Shown here: piece after piece, positions 39,713 through 51,785 of the stretch | How positions within the stretch are numbered: position 1 is the stretch's first letter | Layout: each line of letters begins with the position of its first letter | Source of the DNA: Alphaproteobacteria bacterium | Lineage (GTDB): Bacteria; Pseudomonadota; Alphaproteobacteria; Bin95 | Direction: 5' to 3' | NCBI GenBank assembly: GCA_022827685.1 | Contig: JAJEIH010000086.1 | Coordinates: 1 to 52,309 of the forward strand | DNA length: 52,309 nucleotides | Translations under genes and position numbers: made by a program | The notes under the pieces: generated by a model | What the model saw: only the letters and a program-made list of their open reading frames with translations | Told to the model about the DNA's origin: nothing | Database searches by the model: none

Positions 39713-40657
39713 ATGCAGTTTCGCAATCTGGGCCGGTCCGGCCTGCAGGTCTCGCTTGTCGGCGTCGGCTGCAACAATTTCGGCCAGCGGCTCGACCAGG
39801 CCGGCACCGACGCCGTCGTCCATGCCGCGCTCGACGCCGGCATCACGCTGTTCGACACCGCCGACATCTATGGCGGGCGGGGCAAGTCGGAGGAGTATCT
39901 CGGCAAGTCGCTGGGACCGCGCCGCAAGGACGTCGTGCTCGCCAGCAAATTCGGGATGCGCATGGCGGACGGGCCCTACGGCATCGGCGCGGCGCGCTGG
40001 TACATCATGCACGCGGTCGAGGCGAGCCTCCGGCGGCTCGGCACGGACTGGATCGACCTCTACCAGCTTCACCAGCCCGACCCGCTGACCCCCATCGAGG
40101 AGACGCTGCGCGCGCTCGACGACCTCATCCGCCAGGGCAAGGTGCGCTATATCGGCCATTCCAATTTCTCCGCCTGGCAGACGGTTGAGGCGGAACTGAC
40201 CGCACAGATGCACGGCCTCAACGCCTTCGTCTCCGCGCAGGACGAATACAGCCTCGCCATGCGCGGCCTCGAAGACGACCGCCTGGCGATGATGGAGAAA
40301 TACGACCTCGGCCTCCTGCCCTTCTTCCCGCTGGCGAGCGGCCTGCTCACCGGCAAGCATGGCGACAAGCCGCTCGCGGGAACGCGCATGGCGGATTCGA
40401 GACGCTTCATCGACCGCTACTGGACGGACGCCAATCTCGCCATGGTGCGGGAACTCACCGCCTTCGCCCGCGAGCGCGGCCATTCCATGCTGGACCTCGC
40501 CATGTCGTGGCTGGCGGCGCGCCCGCAGGTTTCCAGCGTCATCGCCGGCGCCATGTCGCCCGAGCAGATCCGGACCAACGCCACCGCCTGCGACTGGACG
40601 ATGACCACGGACGAACTGGCGGCCATCGACGAGATCTGGACCCGCACGCACTCATGA
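39713..40657 (+). CDS. Aldo/keto reductase
   Basis: This 314-residue AKR has catalytic Asp and Tyr in LFDTADIYGGRG, Lys in VLASKFGMR and His in LYQLHQPDP. The sequence is of the general aldehyde/ketone reductase type related to voltage-channel beta subunits and YhdN. TATACT at 39676-39681 is a possible -10 for its own promoter. Its TGA overlaps the ATG of the aminotransferase gene (ATGA), so the pair is co-translated. The substrate is unknown. Confidence 0.9.
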   Translation: MQFRNLGRSGLQVSLVGVGCNNFGQRLDQAGTDAVVHAALDAGITLFDTADIYGGRGKSEEYLGKSLGPRRKDVVLASKFGMRMADGPYGIGAARWYIMHAVEASLRRLGTDWIDLYQLHQPDPLTPIEETLRALDDLIRQGKVRYIGHSNFSAWQTVEAELTAQMHGLNAFVSAQDEYSLAMRGLEDDRLAMMEKYDLGLLPFFPLASGLLTGKHGDKPLAGTRMADSRRFIDRYWTDANLAMVRELTAFARERGHSMLDLAMSWLAARPQVSSVIAGAMSPEQIRTNATACDWTMTTDELAAIDEIWTRTHS

Positions 40658-41835
40658 ACATGCCGCGCGCCGCCGGGCGGCCCTTCATGGCCCTGCCGGG
40701 GCCGACCAACATCCCGGAGCCGATCCTCCGGGCGATGGACCGCCCGACCGAGGACTTCAACAGCCCGGCGTTCGAGGCGCTGGCGGACGGCTGCTACCGG
40801 GACCTGAAACGGGTGTTCGGGACCGAGGGCACCATCCTCTGCTGGGCCTCCTCCGGCCACGGCGCATGGGAAAGCACCATCGTCAACCTCTTCCGGGCCG
40901 GCGATACCATCGTCATCCCGGAGACCGGCGCCTTCTCGACCTGGTGGACGGAGATGGCGGCGTTGTTCGGGGTCGAGGTGATTTCGCTTCCGGGCGACTG
41001 GCGCACGGCAGCCGACCCGGACGCAATCGAGGACGTGCTGCGGAAGGACACAGGCCGGCGGATCAAGGCGGTCGGAATCGTCCACAGCGAGACCTCGACC
41101 GGCGTGCTGAGCGATGTGGCGGCCGTGCGCCGGGCGATGGACGCGGCCGGCCACGATGCGCTGCTGATGGTCGATACCATCTCCTCGCTCGCCTCGATGG
41201 ACTACCGCATGGACGAATGGCGCGTCGATGTCACCGTCGGCGGCTCGCAGAAGGGGCTGATGCTGCCGACCGGCCTCGGCATTGTCGGCCTGAACGACCA
41301 GGCGCTCGCCATCGCCAGGGAGGGCGGCTCGCCGCGCCGCTACTGGAGCTGGCAGCGCATGCTGGACCTCGGCAGCGACCTGCCGAAATTCCCGGGCACC
41401 GCGCCGACGCAGATTTTCTCCGGCATGCGGGTGGCGCTCGACCTGCTGTTCGAGGAGGGACTCGACAATGTGTTCGCCCGCCACCGCCGGATGGCGGACC
41501 TCGTGCGGCTAGCGGTCGAGGAATGGGGGCTGGAGCTCAATGCGCTGAGGCCCGAAGAACGCTCCGACACGGTAACCGCCGTCCGCTGGCCCGAAGGCCA
41601 TGACCCGAACGCCTTCCGCGACAGCCTGCGCGACCGTTTCAATGTCGCCGTCAGCCACGGCCTGCTCGATCTCGCCGGCAAGATCGTCCGCATCGGCCAT
41701 CTGGGCGACCTGAACGAGACGATGGTCCTCGGCCTGCTCGGCGCCGTCGAGGCCAATCTCGCGATAGACGGCGTGCCCCACACGCCGGGCGGCACGCAGG
41801 CGGCTATAGAGCGCGTAGCGGCAAACGGGGTCTGA
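40654..41835 (+). CDS. Class V aminotransferase (alanine/serine-glyoxylate type)
   Basis: This 393-residue PLP enzyme has the cofactor Lys200 in TVGGSQKGLMLPTGLG and the GPTNIPEPILRAMDRP opening typical of alanine-glyoxylate and serine-glyoxylate aminotransferases. SSGHGAWE near residue 67 contacts the PLP phosphate. It transfers an amino group to glyoxylate or a related oxo acid. It is coupled by a four-base overlap to the aldo/keto reductase gene. It is convergent with the MetE-like gene, only four bases away. Confidence 0.92.
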   Translation: MNMPRAAGRPFMALPGPTNIPEPILRAMDRPTEDFNSPAFEALADGCYRDLKRVFGTEGTILCWASSGHGAWESTIVNLFRAGDTIVIPETGAFSTWWTEMAALFGVEVISLPGDWRTAADPDAIEDVLRKDTGRRIKAVGIVHSETSTGVLSDVAAVRRAMDAAGHDALLMVDTISSLASMDYRMDEWRVDVTVGGSQKGLMLPTGLGIVGLNDQALAIAREGGSPRRYWSWQRMLDLGSDLPKFPGTAPTQIFSGMRVALDLLFEEGLDNVFARHRRMADLVRLAVEEWGLELNALRPEERSDTVTAVRWPEGHDPNAFRDSLRDRFNVAVSHGLLDLAGKIVRIGHLGDLNETMVLGLLGAVEANLAIDGVPHTPGGTQAAIERVAANGV

Positions 41836-43226: not shown

Positions 43227-43646
43227 ATGACCGACATTCTCGACAGAGCGCCTCCCCGAACCGAACTCAGCGACGCCGAATGGCGCCGCCGGCTCACGCC
43301 CGAGCAATACAAGGTGACGCGCCGCCACGGCACAGAACGCCCCTTCGCCAACGAGTACCACGCGACCAAGACGCCCGGCACCTATCGCTGCATTTGCTGC
43401 GATGTGCCGCTGTTCGAAAGCGGGACCAAATTCGACAGCGGCACCGGCTGGCCGTCCTTCACGCGGCCCGTTTCGGCCGAAGCCGTGGCGGAAAAGGTGG
43501 ACCGGAGCTGGTTCATGACCCGCACGGAGGTGCTCTGCGCCGGGTGCGACGCGCATCTGGGCCACGTCTTCCCGGACGGGCCGCCGCCGACGGGGCTCCG
43601 CTACTGCATGAACTCGGCCTCGCTCCGCCTGGAGCCGAAAGAGTAG
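43227..43646 (+). CDS. msrB: Peptide-methionine (R)-S-oxide reductase
   Basis: This 139-residue MsrB has zinc-binding pairs Cys55/Cys58 (RCICCDV) and Cys104/Cys107 ([10 protein letters not shown]), the fold stretch SGTGWPSF, and catalytic Cys127 in RYCMNSASL. It repairs methionine-R-sulfoxide in proteins. I chose ATG 43227; an in-frame ATG at 43164 would add 21 residues without clear family similarity. It lies next to methionine-related MetE-like but on the other strand. No msrA is in the window. Confidence 0.95.
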
Positions 43647-43687: not shown

Positions 43688-44008
43688 ATGCTCTACGAAC
43701 TGCGCACCTACAACGCTGCGCCCGGCAAGATCGATGCGCTCAATGCCCGCTTCCGGGACCACACATGCAGCCTCTTCGCCAAGCACGGCATCGGCGTCGC
43801 CGGCTTCTGGATCAACCGGGCGGACCCGAACCAGCTCATCTATATCTGCACCTTCGAGGACGCAGCGCAGATGGAGCGCGCCTGGGCGTCCTTCCGCGAC
43901 GATCCCGACTGGCAGAAGGCAAGAGCCGAGAGCGAGCGCGACGGCTCCCTGGTTGCCTCCATCGAAAGCGTGGTCATGGACCCGACCGACTACTCGACGG
44001 CGACCTAG
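43688..44008 (+). CDS. NIPSNAP-family protein
   Basis: This 106-residue protein has the NIPSNAP pattern MLYELRTYNAAPGKIDAL, a ferredoxin-like alpha/beta fold with the central HGIGVAGFW strand and a Trp-rich helix near AWASFRDDPDWQKA. The family's biochemical role is unclear; members often accompany monooxygenase and acyl-CoA genes. The ATG at 43688 has GAGGAAA upstream. It starts the plus-strand run NIPSNAP, HpaB-type monooxygenase, acyl-CoA dehydrogenase and acyl-CoA dehydrogenase. Confidence 0.87.
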   Translation: MLYELRTYNAAPGKIDALNARFRDHTCSLFAKHGIGVAGFWINRADPNQLIYICTFEDAAQMERAWASFRDDPDWQKARAESERDGSLVASIESVVMDPTDYSTAT

Positions 44009-44035
44009 ACGAAGGAGGCCGGAGACCGCCGGACC

Positions 44036-45514
44036 ATGGGGGGCGCGGCCAAGGACGCCGCCGAGCATCTGGCGAGCCTTGAGGACGGGCGCGCCGTCTG
44101 GCTGGACGGCGCCCGCGTCGAAAACCCGTCCGCGCACCCCGCCTTCCGCAACGCCGTGCGCTCCGCCGCCGGGCTTTACGGCTACCAGGCCGACCCCGCC
44201 AATCTGGAGGCGATGACCTTCCCCTCCCCCACGGCCAGGCGGCGGGTCAACCGCGCCTGGCAGATGCCGACATCGCTGGAGGAACTCCTCCAGCGCCGCC
44301 GCGCGATGACGGCCTGGGCCGAATGCCATGCGGGCTTCATGGGCCGCGCGCCGGACCATCTGGCGTCCGCGGTCACCGGGCAGATCATGGGGCTGGAGGT
44401 GTTCGAGGCCTACGACCCGGAGCGCGCGCGGGCCTTCCACGACTATTTCATCCATGCGCGCGACAACGACCTCTACCTCACCTATGTCATCGTCAACCCG
44501 CAGCTCGACCGCTCGAAGAGCACCGGCGAGCAAGGCGGCGACAGCCCCATGCTCCGCATCGTGGACGAGGACGTGGAAGGCGTGACGGTGCGCGGCGGCA
44601 AGATGCTCGGCACCGCGGCCGTGCTCGCCAACGAGATGTTCGTGGCGCATCTCCAGCCGCTGAAGCCCGACGAGGAAGATTACGCCATCAGCTTCGCGGT
44701 CCCGATGGCGGCGAAGGGCCTCCGGCTGCTGGCGCGCAAGTCCTACGAGGGGCGCGCGCTTTCGACCTTCGACGACCCGCTCGCCTCGCGCTTCGACGAG
44801 AATGACGGGCTGGTCTGGTTCGACGATGTGAAGGTGCCGTGGGAGCGCGTCTTCGTCCATCGCAGCCCCGCCATGTGCGCGCGCCAGTTCCACGCCACGC
44901 CCGGCCACATCTACCAGAACTACCAGGCGCAGATCCGCCTCGCGGTGAAGTTCAAATTCCTCGTCGGGCTGGCGCGCCGCATCTGCGAGACCATCGGCAC
45001 CGTGAAAATGCCGCCGGTGGCCGAGACGCTGGGGATGCTGGCGGCGCAGGCAACGGCGGTCGAGACCATGCTCCACGGTATGGAGGCGAAGGGCAGGCAG
45101 CGCGGCAGGTATTTCGTGCCGGACGCCCATTCCGTCTATGCCGCCCAGGCCTATTGCCAGGCGCTCTATCCGCGCATGGTCGAGCGGGTACGCGGCCTTG
45201 CCGGCGGCGCGCTCATCATGCTGCCCTCCTCCGAGCGCGACCTCGCCGACCCCGAGCTCGCCGGCATCCTGCAAAGCGTCCAGCAGTCAGCCGACGGCGC
45301 GCCGCCGGTCGAGCGCGTGCGCCTGATGAAGCTCGCCTGGGACGCGCTCGGCTCGGAATTCGCGGGCCGGCAGACGCAATACGAGATGTTCTATGCCGGC
45401 GCGCCCTTCGTCACGCGCGGCCACGCCTTCCGCACCTATGACTGGGAGGGGGCCGAAGCGCTGGTCGCGGCCGTCTCCGGCTCCGCCGAAGAAACGAGGA
45501 CCGACCCCGCATGA
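44036..45514 (+). CDS. HpaB-type flavin-dependent monooxygenase (4-hydroxyphenylacetate 3-hydroxylase family)
   Basis: This 492-residue protein belongs to the HpaB/PheA/TftD family. It shows an N-terminal LEDGRAVWLDG, the HARDNDLYLTYVIVNPQLDRS stretch (just over one line of text here), and RFDENDGLVWFDDVKVPWERVF. It keeps only one Cys where 4-hydroxybutyryl-CoA dehydratase relatives have an iron-sulfur set, so I favour a monooxygenase using FADH2. No HpaC flavin reductase is in the window. The ATG at 44036 is preceded by GGAG. Its end overlaps the next dehydrogenase gene by four bases. A phenolic or CoA-linked substrate is possible. Confidence 0.87.
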   Translation: MGGAAKDAAEHLASLEDGRAVWLDGARVENPSAHPAFRNAVRSAAGLYGYQADPANLEAMTFPSPTARRRVNRAWQMPTSLEELLQRRRAMTAWAECHAGFMGRAPDHLASAVTGQIMGLEVFEAYDPERARAFHDYFIHARDNDLYLTYVIVNPQLDRSKSTGEQGGDSPMLRIVDEDVEGVTVRGGKMLGTAAVLANEMFVAHLQPLKPDEEDYAISFAVPMAAKGLRLLARKSYEGRALSTFDDPLASRFDENDGLVWFDDVKVPWERVFVHRSPAMCARQFHATPGHIYQNYQAQIRLAVKFKFLVGLARRICETIGTVKMPPVAETLGMLAAQATAVETMLHGMEAKGRQRGRYFVPDAHSVYAAQAYCQALYPRMVERVRGLAGGALIMLPSSERDLADPELAGILQSVQQSADGAPPVERVRLMKLAWDALGSEFAGRQTQYEMFYAGAPFVTRGHAFRTYDWEGAEALVAAVSGSAEETRTDPA

Positions 45515-46638
45515 AATTCAGCTTTTCCGAGGAGCAGACCGAGTTCCGCAACATGCTCCGCCGTTTCCTGAACGACCGTTCGCCGACAACCGAGGTGCGC
45601 CGCGTCATGGAGACCGAGTCCGGCTACGATGCGGAGGTGTGGCGGATGATGGCGGAGGAGCTGGGCGTCGCCGCGATCCACATTCCGGAGGCCTATGGCG
45701 GGGCCGGCTTCGGCGTCTCCGAACTCGCCATCGCCGCCGAGGAGGCGGGCCGCGCGCTGCTGCCCTCGCCCTTTTTCGGCTCGACCGTCATGGCGGCGAC
45801 CGCCATTGCGGAAGCCGGGACCGACGCCCAGAAACAGGCCCTCCTGCCCGGCATCGCGAGCGGTGGGACGATCGCGGCGCTCGCCGCGGCCGAGCCCGGA
45901 ACCGGGTGGAACGCCGACGCCTTCACGGCGACCGCGCGCCCCGACAACGGCTCCTGGAGGCTCGCGGGGCGCAAGAGCTACGTGCTGGACGGCATGGCTG
46001 CAAGCCTCGTGGTCGCGGCGGCGCGGCTGCCCGACGGCGGGCTCGGCCTGTTCAGCCTGCCGGCGGACAGCGCCGGGCTCGCGCGCCGGCCGCTGCAATC
46101 CATGGACCCGACGCGCCGGCTGGCGCAGATGGATTTCGACGGCGCTCCGGCCGACCTGCTCGGCGGGCCGGAAGCCGGCGCCCCGGCATGGGCTCGGACG
46201 CTCGACGTCGCCGCGGTCTGCCTGGCGGGCGAGATGGTCGGCGGCGCGGAGCGGCTGCGCGAGGATGCGCTCGAATATGTCTCGATGCGGATGCAGTTCG
46301 GCCGTTCCATCGCCTCCTTCCAGGTCACCAAGCACAAGGCGGCGGACATGCTGCTGGAGGTCGAGCTGGCCAAGGCCGCCGCCTACTACGCCGCCGCCGC
46401 AGCCGACGATGACGACGAGGTGGACCAGCCGCTTCCTGCGCTCGCCTCGCTCGCCAAGGCCACCGCCTCCGACACCTACATGCAGACCGCCATCCACGCC
46501 GTGCAGATGCATGGCGGCATCGGCTTCACCCACGACAACGACACGCAGCTCTGGTTCAAGCGCGCCAAGGCGAGCGAAGCCTTTCTCGGCACCGCCGCCG
46601 ACCACCGCGAACGCATGCTGCAGCACTGGAATGCCTGA
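45511..46638 (+). CDS. Acyl-CoA dehydrogenase, small subunit-like
   Basis: This 375-residue acyl-CoA dehydrogenase has the N-terminal helical domain, beta domain and C-terminal helices. FAD-contact stretches include MQFGRSIASFQVTKHKAADM and MHGGIGFTHDNDTQLWFKRA. It begins inside the monooxygenase stop codon (ATGA). Sequence type and pairing with the next gene resemble the two-gene PimC/PimD or FadE28/FadE29 dehydrogenases, which can act as mixed oligomers. Alpha-beta dehydrogenation of an unusual acyl-CoA is likely. Confidence 0.88.
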   Translation: MKFSFSEEQTEFRNMLRRFLNDRSPTTEVRRVMETESGYDAEVWRMMAEELGVAAIHIPEAYGGAGFGVSELAIAAEEAGRALLPSPFFGSTVMAATAIAEAGTDAQKQALLPGIASGGTIAALAAAEPGTGWNADAFTATARPDNGSWRLAGRKSYVLDGMAASLVVAAARLPDGGLGLFSLPADSAGLARRPLQSMDPTRRLAQMDFDGAPADLLGGPEAGAPAWARTLDVAAVCLAGEMVGGAERLREDALEYVSMRMQFGRSIASFQVTKHKAADMLLEVELAKAAAYYAAAAADDDDEVDQPLPALASLAKATASDTYMQTAIHAVQMHGGIGFTHDNDTQLWFKRAKASEAFLGTAADHRERMLQHWNA

Positions 46639-46639
46639 C

Positions 46640-47896
46640 ATGACCGACTTCACCGAAGACGACATCCGCGCCCAGGTCCGCGCGTGGCTGACGGACAACT
46701 GGGACCCGGAGCGGGGCCTCGTCGAGTGGCGCAACATGCTGATCGAGTCCGGCTGGGGCGTGCCGCACTGGCCGGAGGAGTGGCACGGACGCGGCCTGCC
46801 GGTCGGCATGGCGCCGGTGGTCGAGGAGGAGTTCGACAAGGGGGGCGCGGTCGGCGTCGCCAAAATGGGCATCCGCACGCTCGCCGCCGCCACGATCCTG
46901 GAGCACGGCACGGACCTGCACAAGCAGCGCTTCCTGCGCGGCATCCTCACCGGCGAGGAGACCTGGTGCCAGCTCTTCAGCGAGCCCGGCAGCGGGTCCG
47001 ACCTTGCCGGGGCCGTGACGCGCGCCGATTTCCAGGGCGGCAAGTGGGTCATCAACGGCCAGAAGGTCTGGAACACCAGCGCCCACCACGCCGATTTCGG
47101 CCTGCTGCTGGCGCGGACCGACTGGGACGCGGTCAAGCATCAGGGCCTCAGCTATTTCCTGCTCGACATGCGCCAGCCGGGCGTCGAGGTCCACCAGCTC
47201 AGGCAGATGAACGGCCATGCCTCCTTCAACCAGGTGTTCTTCACCGACGCCGTGGTGGAGCCGGAATACCAGATCGGCGGGCTCGGCGAGGGCTGGAAGG
47301 TCGCGACGACCACGCTCATGCACGAGCGGCGCGGCGCGGACGGCGTGCGCCGCTACGCCACCGGCAGCGACCGGCCGGGGCGCATCTACGAGGAGGAGCG
47401 GGCCGAGGTCGCGACCGTCATGGCGCCCTATGTCTGGTATCCGCAGCGCACCGGCCGCGCCGACCTGCTGATCGAGCGCGCGAAGGCGGCGGGCCGCTGG
47501 GACGACCCGGCGGTGCGCCAGGAGGTCGCGAAGGCGCTGACCCTTGCCCGGACCGCGGAATGGACGGCGCGGCGCGCCCGCGAGGCGCAGCAGCTTGGCC
47601 TGCCGCAGGGGCCGGAGGGGTCCATCGGCAAGCTCGCCGCCAGCATCGTCGCGCGGGCCTGCGCCAGGGCGCACACCATGATCGCCGGCCCCGACGCCAT
47701 GCTGACCGGCGAGGACGACGGCACGGGCGGGGTGGTCGCGGAAATCCTGGTCTCGACCCCGGCGATCTCGATTGCCGGCGGCACGGACGAGATTCAGCGC
47801 AACATCATCTCCGAGCGCATCCTCTCCATGCCCAAGGAGGCCCGCCACGACACCGACCGCCCCTTCCGCGACGTGCCGCGGAACCAGGTCGGCTGA
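46640..47896 (+). CDS. Acyl-CoA dehydrogenase, large subunit-like
   Basis: This 418-residue acyl-CoA dehydrogenase shows GWGVPHWPEEWHGRG, the FSEPGSGSDLAGAVTRA substrate-side stretch, GQKVWNTSAHHADFGLLLART and the C-terminal AISIAGGTDEIQRNIISERIL. It belongs to the group that contains pimeloyl-CoA and steroid side-chain dehydrogenases. I start it at ATG 46640, one base after the upstream stop codon; another in-frame ATG lies at 46631. It pairs with the previous gene. It ends ten bases from the convergent hyuB gene. Confidence 0.88.
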   Translation: MTDFTEDDIRAQVRAWLTDNWDPERGLVEWRNMLIESGWGVPHWPEEWHGRGLPVGMAPVVEEEFDKGGAVGVAKMGIRTLAAATILEHGTDLHKQRFLRGILTGEETWCQLFSEPGSGSDLAGAVTRADFQGGKWVINGQKVWNTSAHHADFGLLLARTDWDAVKHQGLSYFLLDMRQPGVEVHQLRQMNGHASFNQVFFTDAVVEPEYQIGGLGEGWKVATTTLMHERRGADGVRRYATGSDRPGRIYEEERAEVATVMAPYVWYPQRTGRADLLIERAKAAGRWDDPAVRQEVAKALTLARTAEWTARRAREAQQLGLPQGPEGSIGKLAASIVARACARAHTMIAGPDAMLTGEDDGTGGVVAEILVSTPAISIAGGTDEIQRNIISERILSMPKEARHDTDRPFRDVPRNQVG

Positions 47897-47906
47897 CGCG
47901 CGGCTC

Positions 47907-49646
47907 CTACCCCGGCTTCCGCGCCCGGGCGCGGAGGCGGCGGGTCGCCTCGGCATCGACGGTCATCGCCGCCCCGTCGATGACGACGCCGTAGTCTTCC
48001 CCGGCGCTTTCGACCGACACATAGCCCTGCTCGACATCGGCGAGCACCCGTTCCGGCTCGCGCTCAAGCGGGTCGCCATATCCGCCCCCGCCGCTCAGCA
48101 CGAACCGCACGCGGTCGCCGGGGGCGAGGCGCCGGTAAACCCCGTGATCGACCGCCCCGCCATTGTGCCAGAGGCCGCTCCCGCGCCCGTTCCGGCCGCC
48201 GAGGCGGCCGAACACCGGGAAGGGGCCGTCCTCGGTGCGGCCGCTGAGGCGCACCGAGCTCTCGACATCGCGGGCGCGCTCGTTGCCGCCGTCGAGGATG
48301 GCGAACTCGATCTCCTGGCCGAGCCCGCCCCGGTTGCGGCCCGGCCCTCCCGAATCGGTGCGGAGCTCCTTGCGGACATAGTACATCCGCGCCTCGTTCT
48401 CGGTGACCTCGACGGGGATGTTGCGCGTGTTGTTGGGGAAGCAGAGGCAGGCATAGCCGTCATGCCGGGCGCTCGCGCCGAAGCCGCCGCTGTGCTGCGC
48501 GATCGCGAGGAACGACCGGCCGTCCGCGTGGCGGCCGTGAAGATAGACCTCGTTGGCCGGACAGCCGCCGTTCGAGGCGAGTATCGACTCCGGCATGACG
48601 GCTTCCATCGTCGCGAAGACGATTTCGGGGAAGAGGTGCGAGATCATCGTCCGGCCCCAGGTGGCGGCCGGCGGGCGGGAGTTGACGATGGTGCCCTCCG
48701 GCGCAATCACCCGGATGGGCCTGAGCCCGCCCTCATTGTTCGGCACATGGGGGTCGAGCGCGAGCTTGACCGGGTAGGCGGTGTAGGAGCGCGTCATGTT
48801 GTAGGAGCAGTTGATCGCCGCCCCGACCTCGCCCGACGAGCCCGAGTAATCGACGGTGATCCCGTCGCCCGCCACCGTGACATCGACCTTCACCACGACC
48901 TCGTCGTCGCAGCCCGGGACCTTCGGGAGCACCGCCACATTGCGGTAAGACCCGTCGGGCAGCGCCGCAATCTTGCGCCGCAGGCTGGACTCGGTACGGT
49001 CGATGACCTCGGCCCCGAGCGCTTCCAGCCCGTCCAGCCGGTATTCCTCCAGCAGCCCCTTCAGCCCCCGCGCGCAGACATTGTTGGCGACGAGCTGCGC
49101 GCGGACATCGCCCAGCACCTTGTCCGGCACCCGGATATTGGCCCGCATGAAGTCGAACACGGTCTCGTTCAGCCGCCCCTCGTCGAAGAGCTTGAGGATC
49201 GGGATTTTCAGCCCCTCCTCGTACATGTCCTTCGATTCGAGGGTGGACATCCGTCCCCCCATGTCGAGATGGTGGACGATGCACAGCGTGTAGCCGACGA
49301 CCCGGCCGCGGTGGAAGATCGGGGCTGCGATCGAGATGTCGATGAGGTGGCCACTCGCGATCCAGGGATCGTTGGTGATGATGGCGTCGCCCGGCCTGAG
49401 CGTTTCAGGAGGGTATTTCGCGATGAAATTGCGCAGCACTTCGGGAACGATGCCGAGGAACCCCGCCGTCGTGACCGTCGAGTGCGAGAGCATCCGCGCG
49501 TCGGCGTCGAACAGCGCGCAGCAGAAGTCGTGATACTCCTTCACGGACGGCGTGTAGGCGGTGCGCATGAGCCCCGTCGCCGCCTCGTCCACGATCGTGA
49601 TGAGGCGGTTCCAGAGGATCTGGATGGTGACGGGGTCGAGCTGCAT
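47907..49646 (-). CDS. hyuB: Hydantoinase B/oxoprolinase family protein
   Basis: This 579-residue protein carries the HyuB pattern: TIQILWNRLITIVDEAATGL at the start, PGDAIITNDPWIASGHLIDIS, EGLKIPILKLFDEGRLN, and the Gly-rich LSGGGGYGDPLEREPERV end. HyuB works with HyuA in ATP-dependent opening of cyclic amides such as N-methylhydantoin or 5-oxoproline; the same fold occurs in acetone carboxylases. It follows hyuA by three bases. No acetone-carboxylase gamma gene is seen, so a cyclic amide is the better guess. Confidence 0.93.
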   Translation of the reverse strand: MQLDPVTIQILWNRLITIVDEAATGLMRTAYTPSVKEYHDFCCALFDADARMLSHSTVTTAGFLGIVPEVLRNFIAKYPPETLRPGDAIITNDPWIASGHLIDISIAAPIFHRGRVVGYTLCIVHHLDMGGRMSTLESKDMYEEGLKIPILKLFDEGRLNETVFDFMRANIRVPDKVLGDVRAQLVANNVCARGLKGLLEEYRLDGLEALGAEVIDRTESSLRRKIAALPDGSYRNVAVLPKVPGCDDEVVVKVDVTVAGDGITVDYSGSSGEVGAAINCSYNMTRSYTAYPVKLALDPHVPNNEGGLRPIRVIAPEGTIVNSRPPAATWGRTMISHLFPEIVFATMEAVMPESILASNGGCPANEVYLHGRHADGRSFLAIAQHSGGFGASARHDGYACLCFPNNTRNIPVEVTENEARMYYVRKELRTDSGGPGRNRGGLGQEIEFAILDGGNERARDVESSVRLSGRTEDGPFPVFGRLGGRNGRGSGLWHNGGAVDHGVYRRLAPGDRVRFVLSGGGGYGDPLEREPERVLADVEQGYVSVESAGEDYGVVIDGAAMTVDAEATRRLRARARKPG

Positions 49647-49649
49647 CGG

Positions 49650-51785
49650 CTATCTCCGCCCGAACGCCGCCGGGTGAGGCGTCTCGTCGGCATCGTCACC
49701 GGAGACGGCAGGCCGGCGGATGACAAGGTCCACCGCGAGGCAGCCGAGCGGGTCCACGCGCAGCCGGTCGCCGGGGCCGATGACGGTCGTCGATTCCGGC
49801 TCTTCGATGACCGCGGGCCCGGCGATCTCCTGTCCGATGCGCAGCGCCGCCCGCTCATACACCGGCGCCCGCTCCATGCCGGCGCCCGCCGGGACATGGA
49901 TGTCGCGCCATGCCTTGGGCGGGGCGTCGGCCTTCGCCGGCGGCCGGGCGAGCTCAAGCGCGGGCGGGGGCTGGCTCACATGCACCCGGATGCTTGCGAG
50001 CTCGACGGGGTTGTCATCGTCCACCTTTCCATAATGCGAACGGTAGAGCGCCTCGAAGCGCGCCTCCCAGTCAGCCTTCGTCGAGGAGGTGTCGCACGGT
50101 TCCGGGACTTCGATCTCGAGCGGGTAGTCCTGGCCCGAATAGCGCAGATCGACGCTGCGGCGCACGATAGGGGCGGCGCCGTCCGGCATCAGGTCTCCGG
50201 CCTCGGCTTCAAGGGCGCGGAACCCGGCTTCGACCGCGGCGAGGTCCACCGCCTCCAGGATCTGCCTCACGGCCCGGCTCCGCTCGAACGCGACCGGGGC
50301 GGCGAGCAGCCCGAGCGACGACATGACGCCTGAATGGGGCGGCACGACGAGGCGCGGGCAGCCGAGCTTGCGAGCCAGCCCGGCCGCGTGGACGGGCCCG
50401 GCCCCGCCGAACGCGACCATTGACAGTTCGGGCGGCGCCTTGCCCTTCTCGGCGACATAAATCCGGGCCGCCGCCGCCATGTTCTCGTTGACGATCTCGT
50501 GGACGCCTGCCGCCGCTTCCAGAGTCGTGAGTCCGGTCGCCTCCGCGAGATGCTTGCCCACGGCCCGCTCCGCCGCGGCACGGTCGAGCGCCATGCGCCC
50601 GCCGAGGAAGTAGCCGGGGTTGAGGTAGCCGAGCAGGAGATCCGCGTCCGTCACCGTCGGCGCCGCGCCGCCCAGGCCGTAGCATGCGGGTCCGGGCGCG
50701 GAACCGGCGCTTTCGGGCCCGACCCGGATGAGGCCGAGATCGTCCACCCGGGCGATGCTGCCGCCTCCCGCCCCGATTTCGAGCAGGTCATAGACCGGCA
50801 CCGCAGCGGGGAGGCCGCTCCCCGACTTGAACCGGTGCTGGCGGTCCACCTCGTAGCTGCGGGTCCGGGCGGCCCGGCCGTTCTCGATGATGCAGAGCTT
50901 CGCGGTCGTTCCCCCCATGTCGAAGGAAAGCAGGCTGTCGATCCCCGCGAGACGCCCGAAATACGCCGCCGCCTCCACCCCGGCGGCCGGTCCCGACTCG
51001 ACGATCTGGACCGGCACCCGTTTCGCCGTCTCGACCGTCGCGGTGCCGCCGTTCGACAGCATGACGAAAAGCCGCTCCCGATAACCGCGTCCGGCCAGCC
51101 CCTCCGCCAGCCGCTCCAGATAGCCCTCCGCAACCCCCTTCACATAGGCGTCGAGCACGGTGGTCGAGGTGCGTTCGTATTCCTTGGGCTCGGGATGCAC
51201 CTCGTGCGACAGCGACACGGTGACCGCCGGAAGCTCCTCGCGCAGGATCTCCGCCGCGCGGCGTTCATGGACGCTGTTTCGATAGGAATGGAGGAACGAG
51301 ACCGCAACGGCGCCGACGCCCTCGTCGCGGAAGACGGCCGCCGCCTGCCGGACGGCCGCCTCGTCCACGGGAAGGAGCACCGCGCCGTCCGCGAGCACCC
51401 GTTCCGGAACGCCGAGCCGCAGCCGGCGGGGGACCAGCGGCTCGGGCAGGCGGATGAACATGTCGTAGATGTCGTAGCGAACCTCGCGGGCCAGTTCGAG
51501 GATGTCGCGGAAGCCCCCGGTCGTGAGCAGTCCGGTCTTCGCCCCCTTGCGTTCGAGGATGGTGTTGGTGACGAGGGTCGTCGCGTGGATCACCTCGGAA
51601 GTCCGGCCCAGCAGATCGGGAATCGCGCCGGAGAGGTCGCCGATGCCGCGCATCACCGACTCCTCGGGCGCATGTGCGGAGGTCAGGGTCTTCTCGACCC
51701 GGATAGCGCCGTCGGCATCGTTGACCAGCGCGAAGTCGGAAAAGGTCCCGCCTATGTCGATACCCAGGCGATAGCTGTTGGTCAC
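49650..51785 (-). CDS. hyuA: Hydantoinase A/oxoprolinase family protein, ATP-binding
   Basis: This 711-residue HyuA has the actin-like ATPase motifs LGIDIGGTFSDFALV at the start and LLSFDMGGTTAKLCI mid-protein, and GAGGGSIARVDDLGLIRVGPESAG. It couples ATP use to ring opening with HyuB. It starts at GTG 51785; the C-terminal part after about residue 520 is the domain linking to HyuB. No transporter or racemase lies next to it. The D-carbamoylase gene at 28467 is unlinked. Confidence 0.93.
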   Translation of the reverse strand: MTNSYRLGIDIGGTFSDFALVNDADGAIRVEKTLTSAHAPEESVMRGIGDLSGAIPDLLGRTSEVIHATTLVTNTILERKGAKTGLLTTGGFRDILELAREVRYDIYDMFIRLPEPLVPRRLRLGVPERVLADGAVLLPVDEAAVRQAAAVFRDEGVGAVAVSFLHSYRNSVHERRAAEILREELPAVTVSLSHEVHPEPKEYERTSTTVLDAYVKGVAEGYLERLAEGLAGRGYRERLFVMLSNGGTATVETAKRVPVQIVESGPAAGVEAAAYFGRLAGIDSLLSFDMGGTTAKLCIIENGRAARTRSYEVDRQHRFKSGSGLPAAVPVYDLLEIGAGGGSIARVDDLGLIRVGPESAGSAPGPACYGLGGAAPTVTDADLLLGYLNPGYFLGGRMALDRAAAERAVGKHLAEATGLTTLEAAAGVHEIVNENMAAAARIYVAEKGKAPPELSMVAFGGAGPVHAAGLARKLGCPRLVVPPHSGVMSSLGLLAAPVAFERSRAVRQILEAVDLAAVEAGFRALEAEAGDLMPDGAAPIVRRSVDLRYSGQDYPLEIEVPEPCDTSSTKADWEARFEALYRSHYGKVDDDNPVELASIRVHVSQPPPALELARPPAKADAPPKAWRDIHVPAGAGMERAPVYERAALRIGQEIAGPAVIEEPESTTVIGPGDRLRVDPLGCLAVDLVIRRPAVSGDDADETPHPAAFGRR

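Follow-up and report, generated by a model that had tools for sequence, protein, structure and literature searches.

The contig JAJEIH010000086.1 of an alphaproteobacterial genome assembly (GCA_022827685.1), analyzed over positions 1 to 52,309 and termed the window in the following, carries a block of four plus-strand genes which encode a NIPSNAP-family protein, an HpaB-type oxygenase and two acyl-CoA dehydrogenases (ACAD1 and ACAD2). We propose that this block is a genus-level catabolic operon, in which a NIPSNAP-HpaB module was placed before an older, independently conserved ACAD1-ACAD2 module; with its full mechanism, this reading is assigned a probability of about 0.5. According to the proposal, the four genes would be co-transcribed and HpaB and ACAD1 translationally coupled. 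The reduced FAD for HpaB would come from a general reductase of the HsaB/HpaC-like type whose gene lies on another contig (C46), and the compound hydroxylated by HpaB would be a free cyclic acid, with N-heterocyclic or lactam-forming acids being likelier candidates than phenols. The ring would be opened and the acid activated to the CoA thioester by enzymes encoded outside the block, an alpha2beta2 heterotetramer of ACAD1 and ACAD2 would desaturate the acyl-CoA, and the NIPSNAP protein may help with an intermediate. The genes of the block, followed by its left neighbor, are:

43688..44008, plus strand: NIPSNAP-family protein, 106 amino acids (Pfam PF07978, E 2e-18)
44036..45514, plus strand: HpaB-type oxygenase of a two-component flavin monooxygenase, 492 amino acids (Pfam PF11794/PF03241)
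45511..46638, plus strand: ACAD1, proposed non-catalytic (beta-like) acyl-CoA dehydrogenase subunit, 375 amino acids (PDB match 6wy8_A)
46640..47896, plus strand: ACAD2, proposed catalytic (alpha-like) acyl-CoA dehydrogenase subunit, 418 amino acids (PDB matches 6wy9/6wy8, 4x28)
43230..43646, plus strand: MsrB (SelR), upstream of the block, start not fixed (Pfam PF01641)

Gene Block and its Conservation within the Genus

An initial annotation of the window, made from its letters and open reading frames (ORFs), had named four plus-strand genes of these families, and all of them are present (NIPSNAP, HpaB_N plus HpaB, and two acyl-CoA dehydrogenases). The two HpaB domains (HpaB_N with 284.1 bits, E 2e-84, and HpaB with 188.4 bits, E 1e-55; Pfam cut-offs 35 and 25) together span the whole length of the oxygenase and thus place it in the HpaB family. 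The overlaps which had been reported as well are reduced to a single one of 4 base pairs (bp) between the HpaB stop and the ACAD1 start; the NIPSNAP-HpaB and ACAD1-ACAD2 junctions are gaps of 27 and 1 bp, respectively.

Conservation was followed in eight genomes (G000-G007) of the genus, whose alphaproteobacteria are uncultured; outside the window, genes were called by our own ORF scoring with unverified starts. NIPSNAP and HpaB occur together in seven of these genomes and are both absent from G007. The order NIPSNAP-HpaB-ACAD1 was found in 6/6 loci whose contigs extend to ACAD1, and among the HpaB-carrying genomes ACAD2 is next in all four loci that extend that far, the contig of G002 ending inside HpaB. 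Because it is kept throughout these loci, the gene order of the block exceeds chance. The 4-bp HpaB/ACAD1 overlap recurs in all six genus loci showing the junction, and the 1-bp gap between ACAD1 and ACAD2 in 5/5 loci, G007 among them. Compared with the window copies, dN/dS values within the genus were 0.08-0.12 for HpaB, 0.07-0.13 for ACAD1 (the value of 0.07 deriving from a 56-codon piece only), 0.11-0.12 for ACAD2 and 0-0.26 for NIPSNAP. The four genes are real and are maintained by purifying selection.

The genome G007 separates the two modules. At its locus (L138:1605-3263) 72 bp separate MsrB from ACAD1-ACAD2, and neither NIPSNAP nor HpaB was detected anywhere in the genome. Since MsrB is joined directly to ACAD1 there, NIPSNAP and HpaB must have been gained or lost as one block. 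A gain after G007 had branched off fits these data, because its ACAD1 (89%) and ACAD2 (90%) are the most diverged among the genus copies compared. MsrB is the left neighbor of the block in the genus and probably stands outside the pathway.

Classification of the HpaB-Type Oxygenase

The best PDB match of the window's HpaB is 9lft, a 4-hydroxyphenylacetate 3-monooxygenase (E 5e-79), which would speak for a conventional ortho-hydroxylase of phenols such as 4-hydroxyphenylacetate. Three observations make such a function improbable: the protein scores below the cut-offs of both NCBIfam equivalogs, TIGR02309 (298.5 vs. 480.2) and TIGR02310 (249 vs. 885.2), its neighbors do not match a catechol pathway, as those of the outgroup gene in L191 do, and the Tyr and the His of the phenol site are exchanged. 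In the alignment to the E. coli enzyme (6qyh), Arg113, Tyr117 and His155, which passages of PMC10816480 describe as substrate residues, correspond to Arg104, His108 and Tyr150, so that the window protein shows Arg-His-Tyr (R-H-Y) in place of the Arg-Tyr-His triad of 4-hydroxyphenylacetate 3-monooxygenases.

For the triad, 105 rows were aligned, comprising HpaB stretches above 380 amino acids only, which excluded one copy in L067 as well as the incomplete ones of G002 and G012. Arg-His-Tyr was found in 98/98 rows at least 40% identical to the window protein; in this count His108 is partly selected for, as it was included in the scan pattern, while Tyr150 is free of selection. The scan for relatives used the patterns WDA[VIL]GSEF and GR[SA]PDH[VL]AS, with 80 of the 569 confirmed relatives being retained. 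Eight plasmid copies obtained without the pattern are Arg-His-Tyr as well, and the seven outgroup rows carry Arg-Tyr-His (three), Arg-Phe-His (three) or Arg-Phe-Cys (one). The R-H-Y branch was seen in Alpha-, Beta- and Gammaproteobacteria. Its members are annotated in their records as 4-hydroxyphenylacetate 3-hydroxylase domain proteins, a function which the triad and the gene neighbors argue against.

A relation to 4-hydroxybutyryl-CoA dehydratase is detectable (1u8v, E 2e-22), and an enzyme of this kind, needing no reductase, would be consistent with the CoA genes and with the lack of a reductase gene. The iron-sulfur ligands of the dehydratase are Cys and His residues, including a Cys-x3-Cys motif. 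This motif is lacking in the window protein (residue 97 is Cys and residue 101 Phe, and few members of the clade have Cys at these positions), and many HpaB relatives keep reductases; the candidate was therefore rejected as extremely unlikely.

With the HpaB-family group D oxygenases the window protein shares both domains at full length and relatives beside a flavin reductase; it differs from them in its R-H-Y instead of R-Y-H triad, in having no local reductase and in being joined to acyl-CoA dehydrogenases. The closest named lead, a tentative one, is pyrrole-2-carboxylate monooxygenase (EC 1.14.13.130), which a passage of PMC6165268 lists as a group D enzyme.

Neighboring Genes of HpaB Relatives and Possible Substrates

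Outside the genus, the HpaB clade comprises 92 rows, 74 of them with full flanks. A flavin reductase gene lies within 3 kb in 58 of the 92 rows (52 of the 74), and a cupin gene at this distance in 60 (55 of the 74). In the tree, obtained by a rapid IQ-TREE run and showing long outgroup branches, most of the clade falls into two subclades, one of 54 rows (46 with reductase) and one of 41 rows (10 with reductase), to which the window belongs. In the first subclade a reductase-HpaB-cupin run prevails, often together with an amidase, DUF2848 and a branched-chain-type ABC transporter. The neighbors in the window's own subclade were counted at 34 loci (34 of 35 non-genus rows, the second L115 copy being omitted): MarR at 20, AA_synth (PF06684) at 19, Amidohydro_1 at 17, a Liv-type permease, named from reading the sequence and not by family scan, at 14, a reductase at nine and a cupin at six. 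The uncharacterized operon of reductase, HpaB, cupin, amidase and DUF2848 in Burkholderiales and other bacteria (e.g., Caballeronia sp. NK8) encodes an R-H-Y enzyme of the same HpaB clade (about 54-61% identity); unlike in this and other operons of the kind, no cupin, amidase, DUF2848 or reductase gene is near the window's HpaB. A further recurrent operon, composed of AA_synth (PF06684), R-H-Y HpaB, Amidohydro_1, cupin and DUF2848, was observed at L044:8367-13407, L049:8356-13552 and, in the cultured Pseudolabrys sp. Root1462, L052:8329-13319; genes for MarR and a Liv-type ABC transporter are close to it.

The amide-cleaving neighbors suggest, by analogy, N-heterocyclic or lactam substrates for HpaB. 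The initial annotation had instead raised hydroxylation of a CoA-linked substrate, so that HpaB would act on a CoA-bound compound made or used by the ACAD pair. The direct coupling of HpaB to the pair speaks for this idea, as do CoA genes adjoining the block on its 5' side in other genomes of the genus: an FlK-like thioesterase, an enoyl-CoA hydratase, a DUF7508 protein and a third ACAD in G005, and an enoyl-CoA hydratase and an ACAD in G004. An ACAD is encoded at the same place in G002; in the window this place is taken by genes for an aminotransferase, an aldo-keto reductase and a MetE-like protein. The support given by the upstream genes of G005 and G004 is for CoA chemistry in the vicinity of the ACAD pair and does not extend to CoA-linked hydroxylation, for which no direct support was found. 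Relatives of HpaB stand beside amidase, amidohydrolase, AA_synth and uptake genes, and the CoA-acting enzymes 6vjr and 1u8v are the weakest in its list of PDB matches. We thus consider hydroxylation of a CoA-bound substrate unlikely; judged by the neighbors of its relatives, HpaB more likely acts on a free cyclic or N-heterocyclic acid than on a phenol or a CoA thioester. Whether the whole R-H-Y branch consists of HpaB-fold monooxygenases for N-heterocyclic carboxylates, with the genus feeding the ring-opened product to an alpha2beta2 ACAD, is a more tentative matter, and we would rather doubt this wider claim than adopt it.

Acyl-CoA Dehydrogenase Pair

The best PDB match of ACAD1 is 6wy8_A, Tcur3481 (E 9e-46), and those of ACAD2 are 6wy9/6wy8, Tcur3483, and 4x28, FadE26; Tcur3481 and Tcur3483 are the two chains of one heteromer (6wy8/6wy9). 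Glu229 of ACAD2, located within an HER motif and present in 24/24 orthologs, aligns with Glu247 of FadE26, which we take to be the catalytic base. At residue 359 of ACAD1, the usual site of the catalytic Glu in ACADs, Leu is found in 22 and Phe in two of 24 sequences. As described in passages of PMC11153573, the alpha subunit of alpha2beta2 ACADs carries the catalytic Glu and binds the isoalloxazine end of FAD, whereas the beta subunit contacts the ADP-ribose end. Because the Glu is kept in ACAD2 only and the best PDB relatives are two chains of one heteromer, the predicted pair looks like an alpha2beta2 heteromeric dehydrogenase. The adjacency of the unlike genes in 20/20 loci is in line with this assignment, and the mixed-oligomer type suggested in the initial annotation is thereby borne out at the level of sequence.

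Adjacent unlike subunits with a catalytic-type Glu on one of them are likewise features of Tcur3481/3483, FadE26-FadE27, IpdE1-IpdE2 and PimC/PimD. ACAD1 is closest to the models of IpdE2 (190.8 vs. a cut-off of 450) and PimD (165.4 vs. 652.7) and ACAD2 to that of PimC (173.4 vs. 623.85). Unlike IpdE1-IpdE2 and PimC/PimD, the pair thus stays far under every NCBIfam equivalog cut-off and was assigned to neither. In steroid side-chain ACADs, a Pro-x-Pro element (Pro89/Pro91 of ChsE4) widens the pocket, according to passages of PMC11153573. ACAD2 differs from the steroid alpha2beta2 enzymes in having no Pro in the aligned stretch, and a steroid-type substrate, which was considered for the pair, is weakened accordingly as a candidate. 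Elsewhere the genes beside the pair are varied, with FMO-like genes at 3/20 loci, a class III aminotransferase and a nitroreductase at 3/20, all of one genus, and also CoA-transferase and carboxyl transferase genes. The FMO-like monooxygenase genes lie within about 8 kb of the pair in three other alphaproteobacteria (L146, L149, L150) and are a hint at an alicyclic substrate. From its sequence, the pair is best read as a heteromeric ACAD acting on some bulky or unusual acyl-CoA.

Probable Supply of Reduced Flavin

The absence of a flavin reductase noted in the initial annotation holds for the block itself, but was not borne out as a general property of HpaB enzymes of this kind, 58/92 of the relatives outside the genus having one within 3 kb. 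The annotation had regarded hpaC beside the monooxygenase gene in relatives as evidence against its interpretation, and this was found in part, as the numbers above indicate; in G013, of the same family, the reductase gene directly overlaps HpaB. The host genome (4.3 Mb, 98.95% complete, with a single HpaB gene) contains two Flavin_Reduct genes, one on contig C46 and one on C109. The C46 enzyme resembles the HsaB, FerA and HpaC reductases, though below cut-off. It is general and not HpaB-specific, as far as its distribution tells, because it is present in 13 of 14 genomes of the order, including the HpaB-less G007. The C109 reductase was found in nine of these 14 genomes and is absent from G007 as well as from the HpaB-bearing G001, G003 and G004. 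Passages of a review state that HpaB makes no direct contact with its reductase (PMC6165268). A reductase encoded elsewhere can therefore serve the enzyme, and probably does so for the window's HpaB; that none is encoded nearby does not prove that the reaction proceeds without one.

Inheritance of the Two Modules

Orthologs of ACAD2 (E 1e-90 or better) were detected in 22 of 385 alphaproteobacterial genomes, and the neighborhood of the pair was examined in 20 regions, i.e., all but those of the window and G004. ACAD1 adjoins ACAD2 in every one of them, and HpaB is near the pair in none. Conversely, NIPSNAP was found near none of the 92 HpaB relatives outside the genus, and the neighborhoods of NIPSNAP and AA_synth in sister genera showed no tie to HpaB. 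The search for the same four genes elsewhere, which the initial annotation had recommended, found them together in no genome outside the genus, and plasmid searches with ACAD1 and ACAD2 yielded relatives below 60% identity only. HpaB and the ACAD pair are both present, on separate contigs, in G012, G013, G199, G292 and G369. In G012, pieces of HpaB lie at two contig ends (L026:8294-9097 and L027:7454-8146), one match containing an internal TGA, which is either a split assembly or a broken gene.

This separate inheritance is a ground for regarding the two modules as unrelated neighbors, NIPSNAP-HpaB having landed between MsrB and the ACAD pair, where it would share no more than a promoter while serving separate substrates. 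A clade HpaB (at least 50% identity) and the ACAD pair occur together in seven genomes; the three which lie outside the family belong to a single genus. At the genus level outside the family, one shared case compares with 0.44 expected (P 0.37), which is not above chance; counted by genome, P is 0.016, a value inflated by kinship. For these figures 17 of 31 genomes counted as clade members (the split G012 copy included; the others at 35-43% identity), and in the draw the f1 genomes were set at five, as taken from listings. Against mere neighborhood stand the 4-bp overlap of HpaB and ACAD1 in all six genus loci and the purifying selection on HpaB, with regulation usually being common to overlapping genes. 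A chance arrangement of this kind is possible, yet we hold it to be clearly less probable than a joint catabolic operon.

Several results weigh against the proposed operon. The case for a joint function of HpaB and the ACAD pair comes from the window's genus alone, in keeping with the co-occurrence figures. The C46 reductase had no match in G004, though this genome has HpaB, and the block contains neither a CoA ligase nor a transporter gene. The window genome has no AA_synth gene, and an ortholog of the subclade's amidohydrolase was not found in it by a search run without positive control; the pathway of the relatives may therefore not carry over. Overall, the observations of the initial annotation were largely right, and its interpretation is partly supported.

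Further Genes of the Window

On the 3' side, the block converges with minus-strand genes for hydantoinase-type HyuB and HyuA (47907-51785), whose nearest model is caprolactamase, albeit far under the NCBIfam cut-offs. They were rejected as members of the block, as neither G005 nor G004 has them next to it. Upstream, at 40507-41835, a class V aminotransferase gene is nearest to BhcA, an L-aspartate-glyoxylate aminotransferase (392 bits vs. a cut-off of 650); genes for an aldo-keto reductase and a glyoxalase-family protein belong to the same run.

Relation to Described Systems and Meaning

In the open-licence literature, to which all our searches refer, no paper was found on HpaB with ACAD and NIPSNAP or on HpaB with the reductase, amidase and cupin set; DUF2848 and pyrrole-2-carboxylate genes gave no useful lead, and a search for NIPSNAP with ACAD and monooxygenase returned no NIPSNAP among the matches listed. 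The kpi cluster of Arthrobacter IN13 was rejected as a match, its monooxygenase being, in the passages of PMC7356986 which describe it, of PF01494 and not HpaB. The kinds of enzymes are thus all known, and it is the joining of NIPSNAP-HpaB to an ACAD pair and the R-H-Y branch that appear undescribed in this literature.

The findings delineate a large HpaB-type branch with an exchanged active-site pair and recurrent operons, on which no paper was found there. The block would represent a second, genus-specific use of the R-H-Y HpaB, beside an ACAD pair, and a single screen of substrates might help in naming the branch as well as its ACAD-linked use. If R-H-Y enzymes do act on N-heterocycles and the ring-opened product does reach the ACAD pair, the genus would possess a new route from N-heterocycles to acyl-CoA.

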